Shown here piece by piece: positions 10,158-48,438 of a DNA stretch of 64,000 bases. The notes beneath the pieces were generated by a model. That model made no database searches. It saw nothing but the letters and a program-made list of their open reading frames with translations, and had not been told where the DNA came from. Origin of the DNA: Lentisphaerales bacterium (lineage in GTDB: Bacteria > Verrucomicrobiota > Lentisphaeria > Lentisphaerales > Lentisphaeraceae). The stretch is taken from assembly GCA_022446985.1 (NCBI GenBank), contig JAKVBD010000015.1, forward strand, positions 1-64,000, read 5' to 3'. A program made the translations under genes and the position numbers. Position 1 is the first letter of the stretch. The number at the start of each line of letters is the position of its first letter.

Positions 10158-10970
10158 ATGAAAATTTATATATTGCTGTTTATCGTTACTTTGAGTCTCT
10201 TTGATATCTATGCCCAACTATTAATAGATGATAGTCTGCTCCGTTCAATAATCAATAAAAATCTGAATTTGTATGAAAAGGAAAAAGCGTTTCCTCACCG
10301 TGAAGAGTTGTTTAAAGAGGGCCTCAAAGAGGTCATTTTAGACTCAGGTAAGGCTTTGGGAAAGGACTATGAAAGTCAGGTAAATGGAACTTTGATCTTA
10401 GTTAGAGCCTATAAAAGCAGGATTTTGCCGGATTGGCAATTGAGTATTGGGGCGGCTGTACCTGTAGGGAAAAATAGAGTCCTAACTAATTTTCACATGG
10501 TCGATCCCAAGAAGCGTGCTGATGTTTTTATGTTGATGAATTTTAAAGGGAATTGCTTCCCTGTGTTAAAGGTGAGAAAATCGTCAAAAGAAAACGACCT
10601 GGCTCTTTTGGAGTGTGACACTCAAAGTTTCCAAGGATTGAAACTTTCAGAGGAAAATAAAACTGGTAGTGAGGTGTCGATTGTTTCACACCCGGATGGA
10701 AGCTTTTATTCCTATTCTAAAGGTCATGTAACCCGCCATTTTTTAGAAGTTGAAAATGGCAAAAAAGTCCAGCGCATGAGTGTTTCTGCAGGTTTTGCCA
10801 AAGGATCCAGTGGTAGTCCTGTTTTAAACTCAAAAGGTGAGGTTGTAGGCATTGTCAGTTTAACTAGAAGTATTTACTACAATAAAGAGAATGGCATTGA
10901 TAAAAGCCTGCAAATGGTTGAGCGGGTTTGTATTCCCACTCAGGTCATATTGAATTTTTTAAAAGATTAA
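10158..10970 (+). CDS. Exported trypsin-like serine protease
   Basis: The 270-residue protein has a signal peptide ending near Ala19 and a trypsin-like (S1/S46-type) fold. The triad is visible: His113 in LTNFHMVD, Asp147 in ENDLALLECD, and Ser218 in the GSSGSP motif (normally GNSGGP). A GEVVGIVSL strand follows, as in HtrA/DegP-type proteases. No PDZ domain follows, unlike DegP. It is divergent from dsbD, and its stop overlaps the stop of the convergent PHP gene by 4 bases. Substrates are unknown; a role in periplasmic protein turnover is inferred. Confidence 0.85.
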   Translation: MKIYILLFIVTLSLFDIYAQLLIDDSLLRSIINKNLNLYEKEKAFPHREELFKEGLKEVILDSGKALGKDYESQVNGTLILVRAYKSRILPDWQLSIGAAVPVGKNRVLTNFHMVDPKKRADVFMLMNFKGNCFPVLKVRKSSKENDLALLECDTQSFQGLKLSEENKTGSEVSIVSHPDGSFYSYSKGHVTRHFLEVENGKKVQRMSVSAGFAKGSSGSPVLNSKGEVVGIVSLTRSIYYNKENGIDKSLQMVERVCIPTQVILNFLKD

Positions 10971-12094
10971 TGACCGTGCCCGTGTCCATGAGGATACAGG
11001 TAGTCGTGTTGGTACACTCTTAGTTTTTTCTCACGACCATCTTTGAATATCGGTTGGCACCAGGCGTAAAAGCCTTCTTTACCTCGTTCTGGATGATTTT
11101 GAACATATGATACTTTAACTCTGAAATAAGCACTTTTAGGGAGCTTTGTTAAATCAAATTCAGCCCAGCTACTATTGGCGGTTTTTATGAGTTTACCTTT
11201 CTGGCCAATGAGTTCTATTTTAAAACCAGTTTTCTGGCCAGGAACTGATTTTCCCCTGCGGACAATCTGCTTTTCAAGTTCTTTGATAGTTTCACTTCTA
11301 CTTGCAGTAACGATAATTTTATTTTTAGTTACTTTGTATTCGCTTAGGTGAACGCCTGTACTGGTGTAAAAATCACCATGAAACATAGCTCGGGTAATGC
11401 TGTCTGCATCAAGCTTTTCTGAGCGAACCATTACCCAGCCACGACCAGGATTAGACTTTTTTAAGCCGTATTTTTTAAAGTCGTGAGCATCATCTGAACC
11501 AACGCCATACATGATCATGCCTTCGCTCAGTAGACGATCCCACCAGACTTCTTCAGAAGGATGATCTTCATGATATTCGGAGTAATTGCTTTCAAACCAG
11601 GAGTTATTGAAGACTTCAAACATATAAAGCTTTTCTACAGGGAAAACGTCTTTTGGAGTTAATGAGGTTTTGTAATTTGGGTGATTAAGGATGGTGACGC
11701 CACCTTTTTTTTCAATTTCGTCTACCTGACGCTGAAGGACTTTGTCGCGGCTTTTGGGTAGGTCGCCCCAGGGCGTAAGGCTTTTTATATTCATCGCAGT
11801 TGTGTGAATATTTTTTATGCCAGTAACCTCCTGTCCTGGGATAAGTATAAAGTCTTTTTTGAGAGGGGTGGGCATTTTGACTTTGGAGGGGTCGATGAAG
11901 ATGTTGTGTTCACTGAGTATAAGGAAGTTGTAATCATGATCATGATACCACTTAGTAACAGCTTCAGGTGAGCTATCGGCATGACCGCAAAGAATGGTGT
12001 GAACGTGAGTGTTGCCTTTGTACCACTTAGCGCTTGAGCAGCCAACGGAAAACAGGGCAGTTAGAAGGGCTAGAAGAGCTAGAAGAGTTTTCAT
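10967..12094 (-). CDS. PHP-domain metal-dependent phosphoesterase lipoprotein
   Basis: The 375-residue protein starts with a lipobox-like signal (LFSVGCSS, acylated Cys19), so it is predicted to be lipid-anchored. The PHP domain follows with its metal-binding motifs in order: GNTHVHT, a His-Asp-rich segment with ILSEHN, ILNHPNYK, and VGSDDAHD near residue 200. PHP enzymes hydrolyse phosphoesters with two or three metal ions. The C-terminal third has a beta-rich part, and the chain ends in alternating His-Gly (PHGHGHGH), a possible metal-binding tail. Its start codon lies in the stem of a strong hairpin. Confidence 0.85.
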   Translation of the reverse strand: MKTLLALLALLTALFSVGCSSAKWYKGNTHVHTILCGHADSSPEAVTKWYHDHDYNFLILSEHNIFIDPSKVKMPTPLKKDFILIPGQEVTGIKNIHTTAMNIKSLTPWGDLPKSRDKVLQRQVDEIEKKGGVTILNHPNYKTSLTPKDVFPVEKLYMFEVFNNSWFESNYSEYHEDHPSEEVWWDRLLSEGMIMYGVGSDDAHDFKKYGLKKSNPGRGWVMVRSEKLDADSITRAMFHGDFYTSTGVHLSEYKVTKNKIIVTASRSETIKELEKQIVRRGKSVPGQKTGFKIELIGQKGKLIKTANSSWAEFDLTKLPKSAYFRVKVSYVQNHPERGKEGFYAWCQPIFKDGREKKLRVYQHDYLYPHGHGHGH

Positions 12095-12133
12095 AAAATC
12101 CTGCAGAATTTAAAAATTTCTACAGGATTTTAT
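12093..12133 (-). terminator. Long hairpin between thrC and the PHP gene
   Basis: ataaaatcctg (12093-12103) pairs perfectly with caggattttat (12123-12133). The stem continues inwards with two mismatches and a 3-base loop, about 17 pairs in total. It lies 32 bases after the thrC stop. On the minus strand it ends in an AT-rich stem with no separate U-tract, and it contains two bases of the PHP gene start codon (12092-12094). It could end thrC transcription and also hide the PHP start in longer transcripts. Confidence 0.6.
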
Positions 12134-12164
12134 GGGGTTAACTTTAAGAAATCAAGGTCTGTTA

Positions 12165-13541
12165 TTAAGACAGAGCGTTTTCTGCTAAGTATGACTGAAT
12201 TTCTTTAAGATCGCCAGCAGCTTTGTGGCATCTTGTTTCTGCACCTTTTAGAGCTTCAAGAGTTGGGTGCTTAGCCAGATCTTCACCAGTTGCCTCTTGG
12301 ATAGCATCGGGGAATTTTGCCGGGTGAGCTGTAGAGAGACAAACTATCTTAGATGAAAGGTTAAGACTCTCTGCAACATCGACACCTACTGCAGTGTGTG
12401 GATCGAGAAGATAATTTTCTTCATTCCAGTACTTTTTGATAGTAGCCAACGTTTTTTCAGTGTTGGATGAAGATGCCATAAAGCAGTCGTTGTTATTCAT
12501 GAATTCATCTTCAATGACGACTTTACCTGTAGACTTGAATTGCTCCATAGCCTCACGGATCTTTTCAGGATTCTTATTCACCAGGAAGTAAAGGTAGCGC
12601 TCGAAGTTAGAGGCAATCTGAATGTCCATAGCTGGACTAATTGTAAAGTTAACATCGCCTCTTTCGTAAACACCAGAGTTAAAGAAACGAGAAAGGATAT
12701 CGTTTTCATTGGCAGCAAGAACTAATTTATCGATTGGCAGTCCCATGCTTTTGGCGATATAACCGGCAAAGATGTCACCAAAGTTACCTGTAGGTACGGC
12801 GAAGCTTACTTTCTCGCCATTTTCAGCAACCTGATTGTAGGCGTGGAAGTAGTAGACTGTCTGAGCCAGGATACGAGCCCAGTTGACTGAGTTTACAGCA
12901 CCGAGATTGAACTTGTTTTTAAAGTCGAGGTCTGCGAAAGTTTCTTTCATAATGCCCTGACAATCATCAAAGCTACCTTCAACAGCGATGTTGAAAACGT
13001 TCTTTTCGAGAACGCTGGTCATCTGCAATGCCTGTAGAGGGCTTGTTTTGCCATCCGGGTGCATAATGAAGATATTTATGTTGTCCTTACCTCTTACTCC
13101 CTGAATAGCAGCACTGCCGGTATCACCGGAAGTTGCACCAAGGATATTTAACTGACCATTTCTTTCGTTTAGGATGTACTCAAAAAGGTTACCAAGGAAT
13201 TGTAGAGCAACATCTTTAAATGCCAGTGTAGGTCCGTGGAAAAGTTCAAGTATCCCAAGTTTTGAAAGTTTAGTAACCGGAGTCACCAGTTCATGGTCGA
13301 AGGTCGAGTAACTTTTCTCAACAAGATTTTTCAGGGCATCTGCCGGTATATCGTCGATGTATAGAGAGAAAATTTTAAAAGCGATTTCCTGAAAACTCAG
13401 GTCTTTCCAAGAAGCAATTTGGTCTGCTACGTTCGGAAAGCTTTCAGGAATAAGTAATCCGCCATCTGATGCCATACCCATCATGACTGCATCTTTAAAA
13501 GCGATAGGCTCAACCTGGCCGCGAGTACTGATATATTTCAT
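12165..13541 (-). CDS. thrC: Threonine synthase
   Basis: The 458-residue PLP enzyme converts O-phosphohomoserine to threonine. The start MKYISTRG is typical of bacterial/fungal-type ThrC. The PLP lysine is Lys109 in FHGPTLAFKD, the glycine-rich phosphate loop is GATSGDTGSAA, and NSVNWARI and VPTGNFGD are further family motifs. Length fits the long ThrC class. It is the third gene of an asnB-dehydrogenase-thrC run, 9 bases behind the dehydrogenase, so probably co-transcribed. Confidence 0.95.
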   Translation of the reverse strand: MKYISTRGQVEPIAFKDAVMMGMASDGGLLIPESFPNVADQIASWKDLSFQEIAFKIFSLYIDDIPADALKNLVEKSYSTFDHELVTPVTKLSKLGILELFHGPTLAFKDVALQFLGNLFEYILNERNGQLNILGATSGDTGSAAIQGVRGKDNINIFIMHPDGKTSPLQALQMTSVLEKNVFNIAVEGSFDDCQGIMKETFADLDFKNKFNLGAVNSVNWARILAQTVYYFHAYNQVAENGEKVSFAVPTGNFGDIFAGYIAKSMGLPIDKLVLAANENDILSRFFNSGVYERGDVNFTISPAMDIQIASNFERYLYFLVNKNPEKIREAMEQFKSTGKVVIEDEFMNNNDCFMASSSNTEKTLATIKKYWNEENYLLDPHTAVGVDVAESLNLSSKIVCLSTAHPAKFPDAIQEATGEDLAKHPTLEALKGAETRCHKAAGDLKEIQSYLAENALS

Positions 13542-13550
13542 ACTAAACCA

Positions 13551-14597
13551 TTATTTATTTAAATTCAGAGGCAGTTCGACTTTTTTGCCTTGACGGCAGC
13601 TAATAGCAACGGCCTCAGTAAATTCCATATAACGCACGCCTTCTTGGTAGGTCGTGAATTTTGTTTTTTCCTGTCCTCGAATAGCACCGATAAACTCTTC
13701 TTCAACCCGCCATTTGTTATATTTGTGTTCTAGGGGCTTTATTTCCTGCATTTTCTGAGAGTTTTTGTCGCCCACTCTCAAAACATTTGTTTGCAGGTTT
13801 AGATGAAGAGTTCCTTCACTACCATAGAGCCATATTTCCTGACTGTTTTCCGCTAAGCCGGTGACTGCACTGAATTGCATTTGTGCTAAAGCTCCACAAT
13901 GCATATTGGCGATTATGTTCAGGTGCTCAGGAATCTCAATGGCTTTTATTTCACCTTCGAAAGTTTTTGTACAGTTGCAAATTTTACCTTGAGCCATGAC
14001 TGATTTAGCATGTCCGAGCCAACGTGTCATGCTTTCGTAGACAATGCCCATAAGCATAGTGTTGAGGCCTGAGAGTTCTATATTCTCACGCCAGGTCATT
14101 TCCTGAGATGTATTGAGGAAAGTAGATGAATTAAATTTTACATTCACAGCCAGAAGCTTTCCAAGTTGGCCAGATGAGATAATCTTTTGAATTTCCTGAT
14201 CGAAAGGAAAGGTGAAAGGTGCAGGGACAATTTGAGCTACCAGGTGAGGGTAACAGCGCGATACTCTCAACATTTCATGTGCTTCTGCAGCATTCATGGC
14301 CATGCGAGCTTCACAGAGGACATGTTTACCTTCCATAAGAGCTGCATTTGAAATAATTTCATGCATGTATGGCCAGGTCCCAATGACTATGGCGTCAATT
14401 TCTTCATCTTCGACCAGCTCCTGCCAGTTAATGAAAACTCTGCGAATGCCGAACTCTCTGGCTACTTTTTCGGAAGATGCTTCAGATCTATTACAGATTG
14501 CATTTATAGAGACTCCAGGGATTTCCTGAAGTTTTGGAATGTGCATTAACTTTGTGTTGGTTCCGGCACCGATGATGCCGACTCTAATTTCTTGCAT
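13551..14597 (-). CDS. Gfo/Idh/MocA family NAD(P)-dependent dehydrogenase
   Basis: I placed the start at the ATG 14595-14597 (MQEIRVGIIGAG), which begins directly with the Rossmann strand. A longer in-frame start at 14651 would overlap asnB by 46 bases. The 348-residue product has the GxGxxT-like loop (GAGTNT), the conserved EARMAMNAAEA segment equivalent to the EKP motif (Lys replaced by Arg in this text), and the beta-sheet substrate domain after 130. These enzymes oxidise or reduce sugars and similar hydroxyl compounds. Substrate is unknown. It lies between asnB and thrC. Confidence 0.82.
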   Translation of the reverse strand: MQEIRVGIIGAGTNTKLMHIPKLQEIPGVSINAICNRSEASSEKVAREFGIRRVFINWQELVEDEEIDAIVIGTWPYMHEIISNAALMEGKHVLCEARMAMNAAEAHEMLRVSRCYPHLVAQIVPAPFTFPFDQEIQKIISSGQLGKLLAVNVKFNSSTFLNTSQEMTWRENIELSGLNTMLMGIVYESMTRWLGHAKSVMAQGKICNCTKTFEGEIKAIEIPEHLNIIANMHCGALAQMQFSAVTGLAENSQEIWLYGSEGTLHLNLQTNVLRVGDKNSQKMQEIKPLEHKYNKWRVEEEFIGAIRGQEKTKFTTYQEGVRYMEFTEAVAISCRQGKKVELPLNLNK

Positions 14598-43515: not shown

Positions 43516-44709
43516 ATGTTATTCAAAAATTTCAAATTTCAGCTGGAGTGTATTTTGAAAAGCAAGTACGATTTTACAGATACGTCACTGACTCATGAAG
43601 AGCGATTTGCGTATTTGACGTCAGAAGTAAATGGCAGGGCACATATTCTTGATCACCTTATTAAAAATTTGAGCGGCTATCTCGATCAGTTAGAAGCTGA
43701 GGTTGATGGTAACCCTGCAGCAGAAAATTACTTAGATCAATGCATTAAAGAATTGGGTAAGTCAGCGACAGTTATCTCAGAAGTTGCGAAATTGCAAAAG
43801 ATGGATCAACAAGAGAATCAGTTGATGAATCTAGTTGATATTTTAAAGGACGTTAAAGATCGTGCAGAAACTATTTCTGAAGTTGAGTTAACTCTGAACC
43901 TTAATGGGCATGAAGAATGTTTGACTAGTGGAAATAGGGATCAATTCACTGCAGCATTTATTTTCCTTGTTAATTATCTTTCCCTTAAAGGAGAAGGAAA
44001 TGTTAGTATTTCTCTAGAGGTTAAAGAATTGGATTCATCTTGTGTTTCACTCAGTAAGACTGAGCTGCCACACAAAAAATACTGGTTTATCTCTTTGGGA
44101 GAAGAGTCATATTCCCTAGATGAATATAAGCCTGCTTTACACTCAAAGAACTCTTCCTTCAAAAATAAACTTTTTCATAGAGATGGAACTCTTTGTTATG
44201 GGACCTTTAGAAGAAGTTTGGGGGACATAGTCGCTTATGATCATGACTCAGGTGCACTATCTCTTGGGGTTATGTTACCGGTGATTGAGTCAGGAGCGGT
44301 CACAGGCGCTTTAGACGAGATTCTTGAAGAAGATGCTTGGCGTGGTGACGAAACTGTACTGGTCGTTGATGATGAAGATATGATTTGGGAAATTCTTATC
44401 GAAAACCTCCAGGAGCTCGGTTATACCGTTATTCTCGCAGAGCATGGAGAAGATGCTGTACAAATTTTTCAAGAAAATCCAGGTTTTATCGATGTTGTAA
44501 TTCTGGATATGGTTATGCCGAAAATGAATGGCCGAGAAGCATTTGGTGAATTGAAGAAAATCGACGAGAATGTAAAAGTGCTTCTCTCAAGTGGTTATAT
44601 GGCTGAAGGTGAGGCAGGAGATCTGCTAGAAAACGGCGCAAAAGGTTTTTTAAGAAAGCCATACAAAATGATCGATCTGGCAAAAATGATTCGAAAAATT
44701 TTAGATTAA
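43516..44709 (+). CDS. Degenerate histidine-kinase-like protein fused to a receiver domain
   Basis: The 397-residue protein ends in a good CheY-like receiver (about 281-397): acidic pair Asp285-Asp286, phosphoacceptor Asp331 in VVILDMVMPKMNG, and the RKPY lysine. The first 275 residues follow the size and helix pattern of a kinase dimerisation/ATPase module (helical to about 130, then mixed), but I see no phosphoacceptor His and no N, G1 or G2 box. It is probably an inactive kinase core that keeps a working receiver. It lies 85 bases after the big operon. Confidence 0.7.
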   Translation: MLFKNFKFQLECILKSKYDFTDTSLTHEERFAYLTSEVNGRAHILDHLIKNLSGYLDQLEAEVDGNPAAENYLDQCIKELGKSATVISEVAKLQKMDQQENQLMNLVDILKDVKDRAETISEVELTLNLNGHEECLTSGNRDQFTAAFIFLVNYLSLKGEGNVSISLEVKELDSSCVSLSKTELPHKKYWFISLGEESYSLDEYKPALHSKNSSFKNKLFHRDGTLCYGTFRRSLGDIVAYDHDSGALSLGVMLPVIESGAVTGALDEILEEDAWRGDETVLVVDDEDMIWEILIENLQELGYTVILAEHGEDAVQIFQENPGFIDVVILDMVMPKMNGREAFGELKKIDENVKVLLSSGYMAEGEAGDLLENGAKGFLRKPYKMIDLAKMIRKILD

Positions 44710-44844: not shown

Positions 44845-47800
44845 ATGCTGAAAGCGGTACAGTGTACAGCCTGTGGGCATGCCATGACAGTGGAAAAGCT
44901 TGGTTATGAGCAACAAGTGGCCTGCCCAAGTTGTAAGACTTTAATAACTGTTCAGTCGGCAGGTATTGATAAAAATACTATCGTTGGTGAGCGTTATCAG
45001 GTTAAACAGGTTGTTTCAGAAAATGGAATAAGCGTTGTTTATCTTGCTACTGACCTTGAGATCGCAGACTACGTATTGATCCGAGTCTATTCCTGGAATT
45101 TTAGTGAATCGCTAAGTTACCGGGAAGATTTCTTGCAGATGATTTCTTCAGTGAGCCATTTGGCTGAACCAGCTCATGTCAGAATTATAGATTATGGTAC
45201 AGATGATAGCCTGATTTATACAGTCTGGTCCTATGAAGATATGGAGCCAATTCAAGCTATTGTAAATAGAAATGGACCGCTTTCTTCAGCAATGGCTCTG
45301 TCGATTTGTAAAGACTTGGCTCTGTCACTGGATAAAGCTTATTACTCATCTGGCGTTGGTCATTTTAATTTAACTCCTGAGTGTATATACTTGAATTCTC
45401 AGGGAGTTGTGAAATACAGTGACTTTGGTATTTCTGCCCAACTAAGTAATGATGCCCGCTTTATGCAAGCAGGTGTATCTTACTGGAATATGAGCTTTAT
45501 GAGTCCTGAAATGGCTTTGGGCTGGAACTATCCAGACATTAAGAGTGATATGTACTCTTTAGCAACCGTTTTTTATTACTTACTTACAGGTTTGGAGCCT
45601 CATGGCGGGGTGAAGAATTGTCATGAAATTAATTATGATGGTCTGTCTTTTCCTCCTCAGTTGGAAGCGACTCTTGATCGTAAACTTTTAGGTATGTTCT
45701 ACAGCATGACCGCGAGGAATCCGGCTCAGCGTTACGTGAGTTGGTCTGAAGTCGTTTCAAAAATGGATCAACTTCTTTACGAAGAGAAGATGAAAAAGAG
45801 TTCTTATTCTCAGCGGCACAGAGCGACTTTAACGCGTTCTTTCAGTAAGGACATTTTTGAGAACATTGAAAATGCTCCAAAGCTGCCCAATAAAAAGCGC
45901 CCGAAAAAACGCGGAAATGTATCCCAGAAAAGAATGAGTGCTGAAGACGTAAGAAAGCGTTTATCGCATAAAGAAGCGGATAAGCCGGTTACTTTTGCTA
46001 AAGGAGGCGCTTCACAGTCCTCTTCGTCTAGACCTTCAGTTAAACGTCGTGGTACGAGTGGAGGCCGTAAGCAGTTATCAAAAACAACGACAAATAGTAA
46101 TATTCCCAGAAGAAACTCGGAGCCACCTGCTAGAAAGCATCAAGTAGAAGCAGAGTCAGAAAAGTCAAAACTAAATATAGTTATGGTTCTTTTTGGGATC
46201 TTATTTGGTGTGGCAATTATCTTTTTTGTGATGAAAGCAGCTCTAGGGAGCGATAAGAAAGTTCGTTTAGCTAATGAAGTTCAGAAGGAAGAGAAAGAGA
46301 TATCTAAACAAGACTGGAGAGGTAAACTTCCTCCATTAGCAGAGCCGGTTAAAGAGCCTGAAAAGCCAGTTGAAGAAGAAAAGGCCGCAGTCGTTGAAGA
46401 AGAAGCAACAGAGCCTGTAAAATCTCAAATGACAGAGAAAGAAAAAAGTAGTCGTTTGAGAGAGTTGATTAAAAAGCTTTTCAAATCAGTCTCAGATAGA
46501 GAATCAGATCTCGCACAAGTGGAAAACGATTTGACAGAAGCTGAGGAGTTAGCACAAGGTAACGATACTATTCACCAGACAATCAAAAAGCTCAAAGAAG
46601 AGTTTACGACAAGAAAGCAATTAGCTGTCAGAATGGCTCTAAGTGATTTAACTCAAGATGTAAGAAACTTACAGCTTAGAGGAGATCATGAAGCAGCTCT
46701 TAAGACAATAGAAGATTACAATGGTCCTTATAAAGGTGCGCTTAGTGGTGATATCCAGAAGTTAAAGAATTCTGTTCTTAAAAATAAAGAAAGGGACTCA
46801 GGTGCTGCTCAAAATGACCAGCCTAAAGTGATCGAGCCTGGAGCCAATATGAAACAGCAGCCAGTAGAAGGCGCTGCCATTGAGAGTAATGCAACAAAGA
46901 CAGGTGTTGTTAAGAAAATTTCTATGGGTATGGCGGAAGCAGCATCTTTAATGATTTCACAATTGCCTGAGGCAGAAAAAGACGGAGTCAATTTTGCCGC
47001 CTTAAATACACTATTGGAGAAATCCTCACCACAAGGAATTTTGGCGGAGCTTACTAAAGGTTATCAAAAAGAGCAGCAGTCACAAATAGCGATACGTCAT
47101 AAAGGCCAGACTCTTACCGGTAACTTGGTCTATGTTGATGATGAAGTGAGTAGCCTAAGAATGGCTGTAGTCATAAACAAAAGAGAGATTTTTAGAATAG
47201 CAGATATCAAAGACATTTTCCCAGACGATAATTTAACTCGATTGAAAGGTGTAGATTCTTCAGAAACTGCATTTTTACAAATGATTTATTTACGCCGTGC
47301 AGGACGTGTAAGCGATGCAATAAAGGCTTTTTTACCATACAATGGGCCACTGAAAGCTGAAATAAGTCAAGCACTTAAGGAAGAGATCGATAGAGCCGCG
47401 ACTGAAGGTGTAAAAGAAGTTACGTCTCTTGTAAGTCTACCGGATTTTTCTTCTGAAGTTTTTATCACAACTTTAAATCAAATTAAGAGTACTCCTGAAG
47501 ATGCCTGGTTAGCCATGTATAAGCTTAAGGAATTTACGAAAAAGTATGGTGCAACCGACTTTTACAAAAACAACCAAAGAAAATTCCTTACCTTATCAAA
47601 GGCACTTTCTCAAATGACAAGCAGAGTCGCTAAAGCGAGTGTTGTTGTATCAGAAGATGGTCGTTCAGGAACCAAGACTTTAGAAGCTGCACTTAGAGAA
47701 GCGAAAGCCGGAGAAGTCATTAGAGTTCTTCCAGGTAATTATGACGGGACTTTTGATATCCGTCAAAAATCTGTTCAACTCTTAGGTAGTACAGGAACAG

Positions 47801-48438
47801 TTTTAGTTTCCGCTTTGAGAATTTCAGAAAAGGGTGCAGTAGTTAAAGGCCTCGTTCAGAGTAATGGTGACCTTACAATAGGCTCAGAAGTGGATAACGT
47901 ACAGATTGTAAATTGCTTGTTTTCAAAAGGCGGTATAAAAATGGCCGGAAATAATAGCAGTATCATCATTAATAATACTTTGATGCATGGGCTGACTCTT
48001 GGCTCAAATAAGAGGCTTTCTATACAAAACTCGACGATTATTGATAACAAGATTGATAAAAATAAAGATCGCCATTTTTGTGTTAAGGGTTTTATCAAAG
48101 GTGAAGTTAATAACAGCGTGATTTACAGTGAAGCTAACTATGGGATTAGTTTTAAGAAGAGTGAAAAAAGTTCAACCAGTTTTAAAAACTCTATTGTATT
48201 TGGTTCTAATTCTATAGCCTATGCGACGGATTCTAAAGAAGCTTTTAATAGTGAAAAAGATTTCAAGAAGAATGTCGGACGAGTGAACAATGTCTTGTTT
48301 GAGAGACCTAGTTTAGAAAATCCTGTAAAAGGTGATTTTAGGATTAAAGAATTTACACCAGGGCATCTCCAGGGCGAGAACAAAAAGTCTATGGGGATTC
48401 AAATGGATGCCAACCTAAAATTTTTGAATGTCGAATAA
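44845..48438 (+). CDS. Transmembrane pseudokinase with zinc ribbon and beta-helix domain
   Basis: The 1197-residue protein starts with a zinc ribbon (Cys7, Cys10, Cys27, Cys30) and a Ser/Thr-kinase-like domain (about 48-312). Key catalytic residues are changed: the VAIK lysine is Arg80, and HRDLKPEN reads HFNLTPEC (Asn175 for the catalytic Asp, Thr for Lys). DFG (193-195), the APE-like SPE (220-222), Asp235 and Arg296 remain. A basic linker, one membrane helix (about 442-464), a Glu/Lys coiled-coil-rich part and a right-handed beta-helix (about 931-1180) follow. It is probably a sensor or scaffold without phosphotransfer. Its end overlaps the SNF2 gene by 11 bases. Confidence 0.85.
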   Translation: MLKAVQCTACGHAMTVEKLGYEQQVACPSCKTLITVQSAGIDKNTIVGERYQVKQVVSENGISVVYLATDLEIADYVLIRVYSWNFSESLSYREDFLQMISSVSHLAEPAHVRIIDYGTDDSLIYTVWSYEDMEPIQAIVNRNGPLSSAMALSICKDLALSLDKAYYSSGVGHFNLTPECIYLNSQGVVKYSDFGISAQLSNDARFMQAGVSYWNMSFMSPEMALGWNYPDIKSDMYSLATVFYYLLTGLEPHGGVKNCHEINYDGLSFPPQLEATLDRKLLGMFYSMTARNPAQRYVSWSEVVSKMDQLLYEEKMKKSSYSQRHRATLTRSFSKDIFENIENAPKLPNKKRPKKRGNVSQKRMSAEDVRKRLSHKEADKPVTFAKGGASQSSSSRPSVKRRGTSGGRKQLSKTTTNSNIPRRNSEPPARKHQVEAESEKSKLNIVMVLFGILFGVAIIFFVMKAALGSDKKVRLANEVQKEEKEISKQDWRGKLPPLAEPVKEPEKPVEEEKAAVVEEEATEPVKSQMTEKEKSSRLRELIKKLFKSVSDRESDLAQVENDLTEAEELAQGNDTIHQTIKKLKEEFTTRKQLAVRMALSDLTQDVRNLQLRGDHEAALKTIEDYNGPYKGALSGDIQKLKNSVLKNKERDSGAAQNDQPKVIEPGANMKQQPVEGAAIESNATKTGVVKKISMGMAEAASLMISQLPEAEKDGVNFAALNTLLEKSSPQGILAELTKGYQKEQQSQIAIRHKGQTLTGNLVYVDDEVSSLRMAVVINKREIFRIADIKDIFPDDNLTRLKGVDSSETAFLQMIYLRRAGRVSDAIKAFLPYNGPLKAEISQALKEEIDRAATEGVKEVTSLVSLPDFSSEVFITTLNQIKSTPEDAWLAMYKLKEFTKKYGATDFYKNNQRKFLTLSKALSQMTSRVAKASVVVSEDGRSGTKTLEAALREAKAGEVIRVLPGNYDGTFDIRQKSVQLLGSTGTVLVSALRISEKGAVVKGLVQSNGDLTIGSEVDNVQIVNCLFSKGGIKMAGNNSSIIINNTLMHGLTLGSNKRLSIQNSTIIDNKIDKNKDRHFCVKGFIKGEVNNSVIYSEANYGISFKKSEKSSTSFKNSIVFGSNSIAYATDSKEAFNSEKDFKKNVGRVNNVLFERPSLENPVKGDFRIKEFTPGHLQGENKKSMGIQMDANLKFLNVE

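Follow-up and report, generated by a model that had tools for sequence, protein, structure and literature searches.

The window analysed here, a 64,000-nucleotide stretch of DNA from a Lentisphaerales bacterium, holds an intact open reading frame with an ATG start that encodes a protein of 1197 residues (Table 1). A zinc ribbon and a kinase fold are predicted to lie on one side of a membrane helix, with TPR-like helices, a β-barrel and a β-helix on the other. This order of zinc ribbon, kinase, membrane helix and β-helix, proposed in a first-pass annotation, is real and conserved. In Pfam, the kinase domain is the sole domain type above the cut-off for the 1197-residue protein.

The N-terminal zinc ribbon is confirmed by its four cysteines, which are invariant in 24 of 24 family members and in all 19 active kinases compared. 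A hydrophobic helix (residues ∼445–463) occurs exactly once in each of the 12 full-length relatives, and Lys and Arg are usually more numerous on its kinase side. The protein appears to be the founder of a family that extends across several bacterial families of the class holding the genus Lentisphaera.

Table 1. Features of the pseudokinase gene, in window coordinates
Feature	Residues	Position	Strand	Basis
Whole gene: zinc ribbon, pseudokinase, transmembrane helix, TPR-like/β-barrel, β-helix		44845..48438	+	Open reading frame; full-length relatives in same family
Zinc ribbon, N-terminal (Cys7/Cys10/Cys27/Cys30)	5–36	44857..44952	+	Cys invariance
Pseudokinase domain	45–315	44977..45789	+	Pfam Pkinase; structure model; Foldseek
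Arg replacing β3 (VAIK) Lys	80	45082..45084	+	Arg 13/13 in own family (f1), 7/11 outside; Lys 19/19 active kinases
Asn replacing HRD Asp	175	45367..45369	+	Asn 21, Ser 2, Ala 1, Asp 0 of 24
DFG, intact here	193–195	45421..45429	+	Asp in only 12/24 family members
SPE, APE-type motif	220–222	45502..45510	+	P221 and E222 in 23/24
Cytoplasmic linker, basic, low-complexity	316–443	45790..46173	+	50% identity to nearest orthologue
Thr right behind kinase fold	330	45832..45834	+	Invariant column, f1 alignment
Transmembrane helix, single	444–466	46174..46242	+	Hydropathy; one per protein in 12/12
Outside helical section	530–930	46432..47634	+	Structure model; profile common to other transmembrane kinases of phylum
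Right-handed β-helix (predicted)	933–1167	47641..48345	+	Model; Foldseek; weak Pfam Beta_helix
C-terminal tail, conserved	1168–1197	48346..48435	+	80% identity to nearest orthologue; pLDDT <50

The kinase domain and its motifs

The domain search and structure prediction that the first-pass annotation had suggested returned a eukaryotic-like Ser/Thr kinase fold and, in the model, the β-helix. Pfam Pkinase (PF00069) matches residues 53–297 above its curated cut-off (E = 9e-18), a sequence search of the PDB ranked the kinase domains of StkP and PknB highest, and the model of the inside part (pLDDT 84) was matched by Foldseek to Stk1, PknA and PknB with E values of about 1e-15. The residues of an active Ser/Thr kinase are missing from this fold. 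The protein reads VLIR at the VAIK site and HFNLTPEC at the catalytic loop, with Arg80, Met99 and Asn175 in place of the VAIK Lys, the αC Glu and the HRD Asp, and with Cys180 in place of the catalytic-loop Asn. Arg for the ATP-binding Lys, HFN for HRD and an APE-like motif (SPE) had been called correctly, and residues that maintain the fold (H173, P221, E222, D235 and R296) are retained. The degeneracy had been understated, as the glycine loop, the αC Glu and the HRDxxK Lys are gone too. The DFG motif that had been described as kept is present in this protein but is not a family-wide feature.

Searching the proteins of 60 related genomes turned up full-length matches within the window's own bacterial family (f1): a same-genus relative at 58% over the whole length and most other members at 23–30%, with Lentisphaera marina IMCC 11369, a Lentisphaeraceae MAG and a MAG labelled Lentisphaera araneosa among the named relatives. 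Alignment of 12 full-length members showed Arg80, the four zinc-ribbon cysteines, H173, P221, E222, D235 and R296 to be invariant. When the pseudokinase profile was run against the class and phylum, strong matches were confined to families f1, f17 and f19, weaker members came from f9 and f64, and active kinases surfaced only past a score gap, at ∼1e-60 and weaker.

Motifs were counted in 24 pseudokinases from five bacterial families of one class (13 from f1 and 11 from outside it) and in 19 active zinc-ribbon kinases from the same phylum. The catalytic Asp and the αC Glu are present in all 19 active kinases and in none of the 24 pseudokinases; the β3 Lys, the HRDxxK Lys and the DFG Asp, again found in 19/19 active kinases, remain in 2/24, 3/24 and 12/24 pseudokinases, respectively, and the DFG position reads QGF, IGF, YEF or MNL in many relatives. 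Arg occupies the β3 position in 20/24 (13/13 within f1 and 7/11 outside) and Asn the HRD position in 21/24, answering the call for a conservation check of these two residues, while R296, the structural partner of the SPE motif, is kept in 23/24. Outside f1, LLRIP replaces VAIK and HQN replaces HRD, and the activation segment FNIWDxxYMSPE resembles the FNIFDIYYSSPE of f1; active kinases read GTPxYMSPE at this site. No orthologue with VAIK and HRD, which had been named as evidence against a pseudokinase, was found among the 24 relatives, and throughout the searched family, class and phylum every family member whose motifs were read lacks the catalytic Asp. The degeneracy is thus conserved (catalytic Asp in 0/24), which upholds the pseudokinase assignment; a sequencing error or a pseudogene was ruled out by the same substitutions in independent genomes and by intact reading frames. 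The invariant column of Thr330 includes one active kinase (L034:2708-5038), and this residue is a possible phosphosite.

That the protein might be an unusual but active kinase, its lost residues supplied from elsewhere, is very improbable. Relocation of the Lys is common in the same genome, where 62 kinases carry a glycine-loop Lys, but these retain the catalytic Asp and a recognizable glycine loop and the pseudokinase family retains neither; nor did the list of residues contrasting pseudokinases with active kinases contain a compensating conserved Lys or Asp. Somewhat less remote, although still improbable, is binding of a nucleotide via Arg80, in a nucleotide-gated switch or a non-phosphorylating enzyme of the kind represented by SelO and SidJ. 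Against the GxGxxG loop being found in 0/24 members, the absence of an αC Glu to pair with Arg80, the loss of the DFG Asp in 12/24 and the loss of the catalytic-loop Asn in the window protein can be set the fixed Arg at the β3 Lys site in all 13 own-family sequences and AlphaFold3 models that put ATP in K-to-R pseudokinases (PMC12599244).

Comparison of the window protein with its nearest orthologue (the two nearest species) gave identities of 80% for the zinc ribbon, 77% for the pseudokinase, 50% for the inside linker, 41–48% for the outside helical parts, 61% for the β-helix and 80% for the C-terminal tail. The pseudokinase is therefore the most conserved large domain (77% versus 41–61% for the large outside segments), and nonsynonymous differences per site follow the same order (0.11 for the zinc ribbon, 0.14 for the kinase domain and 0.26–0.42 for the large outside domains), synonymous sites being near saturation. 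Since the linker and outside values are lower, these identities argue that a domain that has lost catalysis is under strong purifying selection; with the zinc ribbon and the kinase domain conserved best, strong selection would act on contacts made inside the cell. On these grounds it is scarcely credible that the protein is the decaying remnant of a kinase receptor that was once active. Some relatives do look damaged or split (L032/L044 and the second copy in L034), but intact reading frames occur in several bacterial families and the strongest constraint falls on the pseudokinase domain itself.

The outer half

The model of the outside part (mean pLDDT 81, pTM 0.61) comprises helices, a small β-barrel (∼747–787) and the β-helix (933–1167), with the C-terminal 29 residues placed with low confidence. 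Two 'Y-x-G-P' helix-turn repeats (∼602–660 and ∼806–845) lie within the helical section, whose profile also occurs in other transmembrane kinases of the phylum. At 933–1167 the model shows short strands one after another, and Foldseek matched this region to pectin methylesterase and PL6 alginate lyase (E values of 2.7e-4 to 5e-4); the Pfam Beta_helix match is weak and below the cut-off (E = 0.0079). Model and Foldseek thus agree with the C-terminal pectin-lyase-like β-helix of the first-pass annotation, and the Foldseek and Pfam matches suggest that it is right-handed. By sequence, the outer half found one weak tail-spike match in the PDB (E = 0.012) and nothing else.

The likeness to pectin methylesterases and PL6 alginate lyases is one of fold; identity is ∼12–16%, no conserved catalytic set is apparent in the family alignments, and here the β-helix hangs on a pseudokinase. 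The β-helix columns of the family alignments (A2/A3) have no invariant Asp/Glu/Lys pattern except for R960 and a near-invariant D1164, and the outside domains show no invariant set of acidic or basic catalytic residues from which a ligand could be named. A profile search with the outer half traced this layout to further families of the class. Overall, the layout with the β-helix occurs in genomes G000–G005, G250, G257, G162, G236, G222 and G262; the f64 member L229 has it and the f9 member L228 does not.

Origin and comparison with known systems

A quick tree built from 54 kinase domains places all of the pseudokinases to one side of a single branch. The same question was put to a more careful tree in which the columns of the glycine loop, β3, αC, catalytic loop, DFG and activation segment were masked; here one change is needed, and one branch with moderate support (90/82, 88% of bootstrap trees) separates the pseudokinases from the 19 active zinc-ribbon kinases. 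Two subclades are formed by f1 with f64 (100/96) and by f9, f17 and f19 (99/98); without the long-branched L190, support for the branch that joins them drops to 83/48. As the separation persists with the motif columns masked, the family likely has one origin, although this is not proved. L190 (G000:C195:54819-55535) and L193 (G000:C240:5693-6412) are two more Arg/Asn pseudokinases with a zinc ribbon and long branches; both probably fall outside the family.

The closest kinase domains by sequence and fold are those of PknB, StkP, Stk1 and PknA, which, like the window protein, have an N-terminal kinase inside, one transmembrane helix and an outer sensor half. They differ in having the VAIK Lys and HRD Asp and no zinc ribbon, and they carry PASTA domains where the window protein has TPR-like helices and a β-helix; the PASTA kinase model NF033483 scores 137.7 bits against a cut-off of 450 and Pfam gave no PASTA match. 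Active zinc-ribbon transmembrane kinases of the phylum (among them L009, L069, L071, L072 and L076) share the zinc ribbon and some of the outer TPR-like section with the window protein, but they keep GxGxxG, VALK and HRDIKPxN and have no match to the β-helix part of the profile. MviN of mycobacteria, a multi-pass flippase, is likewise a bacterial membrane-linked pseudokinase. Its pseudokinase region (ActPs3, residues 710–942) has the motifs VALT/Lsidhpsr/Y-- (PMC12599244, Table 1), whereas the window protein has VLIR/HFNLTPEC in an N-terminal pseudokinase ahead of a single transmembrane helix.

The same two substitutions, Arg for the β3 Lys and Asn for the HRD Asp, are known from the ActPs2 pseudokinases, a predominantly actinobacterial group within the Act2 family in which most members have a DFG deletion and for which no zinc ribbon or β-helix is reported (PMC12599244). 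The window protein shares both substitutions (Arg80 and Asn175) but has an intact DFG, its relatives lack the DFG deletion, and its nearest named relatives, Lentisphaera marina and Lentisphaeraceae MAGs, set it apart by taxon; the likeness is probably convergent. The first-pass annotation knew of no described family with this layout. This stands insofar as Pfam and NCBIfam give only generic kinase matches and a literature search for a kinase joined to a β-helix found no paper with this layout, but the combination of K-to-R and HRD D-to-N substitutions had already been described in ActPs2 (PMC12599244). Single features are shared with ActPs2, MviN, EssB/YukC and PASTA kinases, the defining features of which (taxon and DFG deletion for ActPs2) the family lacks, and it belongs among the bacterial transmembrane pseudokinases, a kind already known from MviN, EssB/YukC and ActPs2.

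Possible role and gene neighbourhood

Conservation of a dead kinase in at least five related bacterial families makes it probable that it is a working signalling or scaffolding part. To the reading that we prefer we give an even chance: a conserved non-catalytic transmembrane pseudokinase, receptor or scaffold, that acts on the cell's active kinases, with its β-helix binding outside. The β-helix would bind a polymer or an envelope component, and inside, active zinc-ribbon Ser/Thr kinases, or the products that they phosphorylate, would have the pseudokinase and zinc ribbon as a docking or allosteric partner, so that a signal could pass by binding, clustering or shape change without phosphate transfer. 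With 134 Pkinase matches in the genome, more than 100 other kinase domains could be partners. A more specific proposal, that these are class-wide receptor pseudokinases of single origin in which the β-helix senses a polysaccharide outside the cell and one or more of the many active zinc-ribbon kinases are under allosteric control by the dead kinase, is rather unlikely; if true, this receptor would be a bacterial counterpart of the eukaryotic receptor pseudokinases.

Doubtful, but to be weighed seriously, is a structural envelope scaffold or tether in which the pseudokinase anchors a cytoplasmic assembly at the membrane with no ligand signal. EssB/YukC of type VIIb secretion is such a single-pass pseudokinase with a large outer part and a scaffolding role (PMC12599244), and its glycine loop is degraded like that of the window protein; the lack of conserved catalytic residues for the β-helix in the family alignments and TPR-like repeats suited to protein contacts agree with this. 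EssB/YukC differs, however, in its secretion operon, its shortened activation loop and its lack of a zinc ribbon and β-helix. Type VII secretion genes are not among the neighbours of the window gene, and no conserved secretion or envelope machinery adjoins it: around it lie an ABC transporter, a response regulator, an SNF2 helicase and a ComM-like gene. The order of ABC transporter parts, response regulator, pseudokinase and SNF2 is the same in the sister species, and the SNF2 gene starts 11 bases before the pseudokinase gene ends. The response-regulator protein (43516-44709), the N-terminal half of which is uncharacterized, is encoded upstream of the pseudokinase gene in conserved synteny in the two genus members.

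Bacterial pseudokinases are largely unexplored by experiment, and the present family comes from a lineage absent from the 2025 review of them (PMC12599244). It has a defined outer domain and an inner domain conserved beyond the outer half, and the existence of a cultured member, Lentisphaera marina, leaves receptor-type signalling by a dead bacterial kinase open to direct test.

A defence role was considered and rejected: PADLOC matches were to generic kinase models (PD-T4-6) and SNF2 models and formed no system. A mobile or plasmid origin was also rejected, a full-length plasmid match being absent. Three Lentisphaera genomes (L034, L036 and L038) each carry two pseudokinase genes close to a divergent active zinc-ribbon kinase gene, which overlaps a gene for a glgE-type maltosyltransferase. 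Such pairing with a neighbouring active kinase was not accepted as a general rule, as it was seen only in these three genomes and no active kinase adjoins the pseudokinase gene in the window's genome.

Frame breaks interrupt one copy in L034 and one in L044, and in L036/L043 a transposase sits between the two pseudokinase genes. A second pseudokinase in L031 is split into a kinase-half reading frame (12098-13219, plus strand) and an outer-half reading frame (13277-14254, plus strand) and adjoins the own-genome paralogue (L031:7251-10436); the sister species has a similar split copy (L032:9148-10680 and 10707-11351). Between the paralogous pseudokinase genes lies a conserved secreted NHL/six-bladed β-propeller protein (L031:10699-11727 and L032:7043-8068).

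Relocation of the Lys to the glycine loop is of a kind known in WNK kinases, and a literature search on relocated-Lys (GxGGMK) kinases found no paper. This relocation is hugely expanded in the window's own genome, in which 62 of 120 distinct kinase domains are without the β3 Lys (VAMA) and place a Lys where the glycine loop has its third glycine (GxGGMK), with HLD for HRD and DWG for DFG. These proteins are mostly ∼650–700 residues in length; examples are L111 (G000:C55:3700-5900), L114, L117, L137, L144 and L160.
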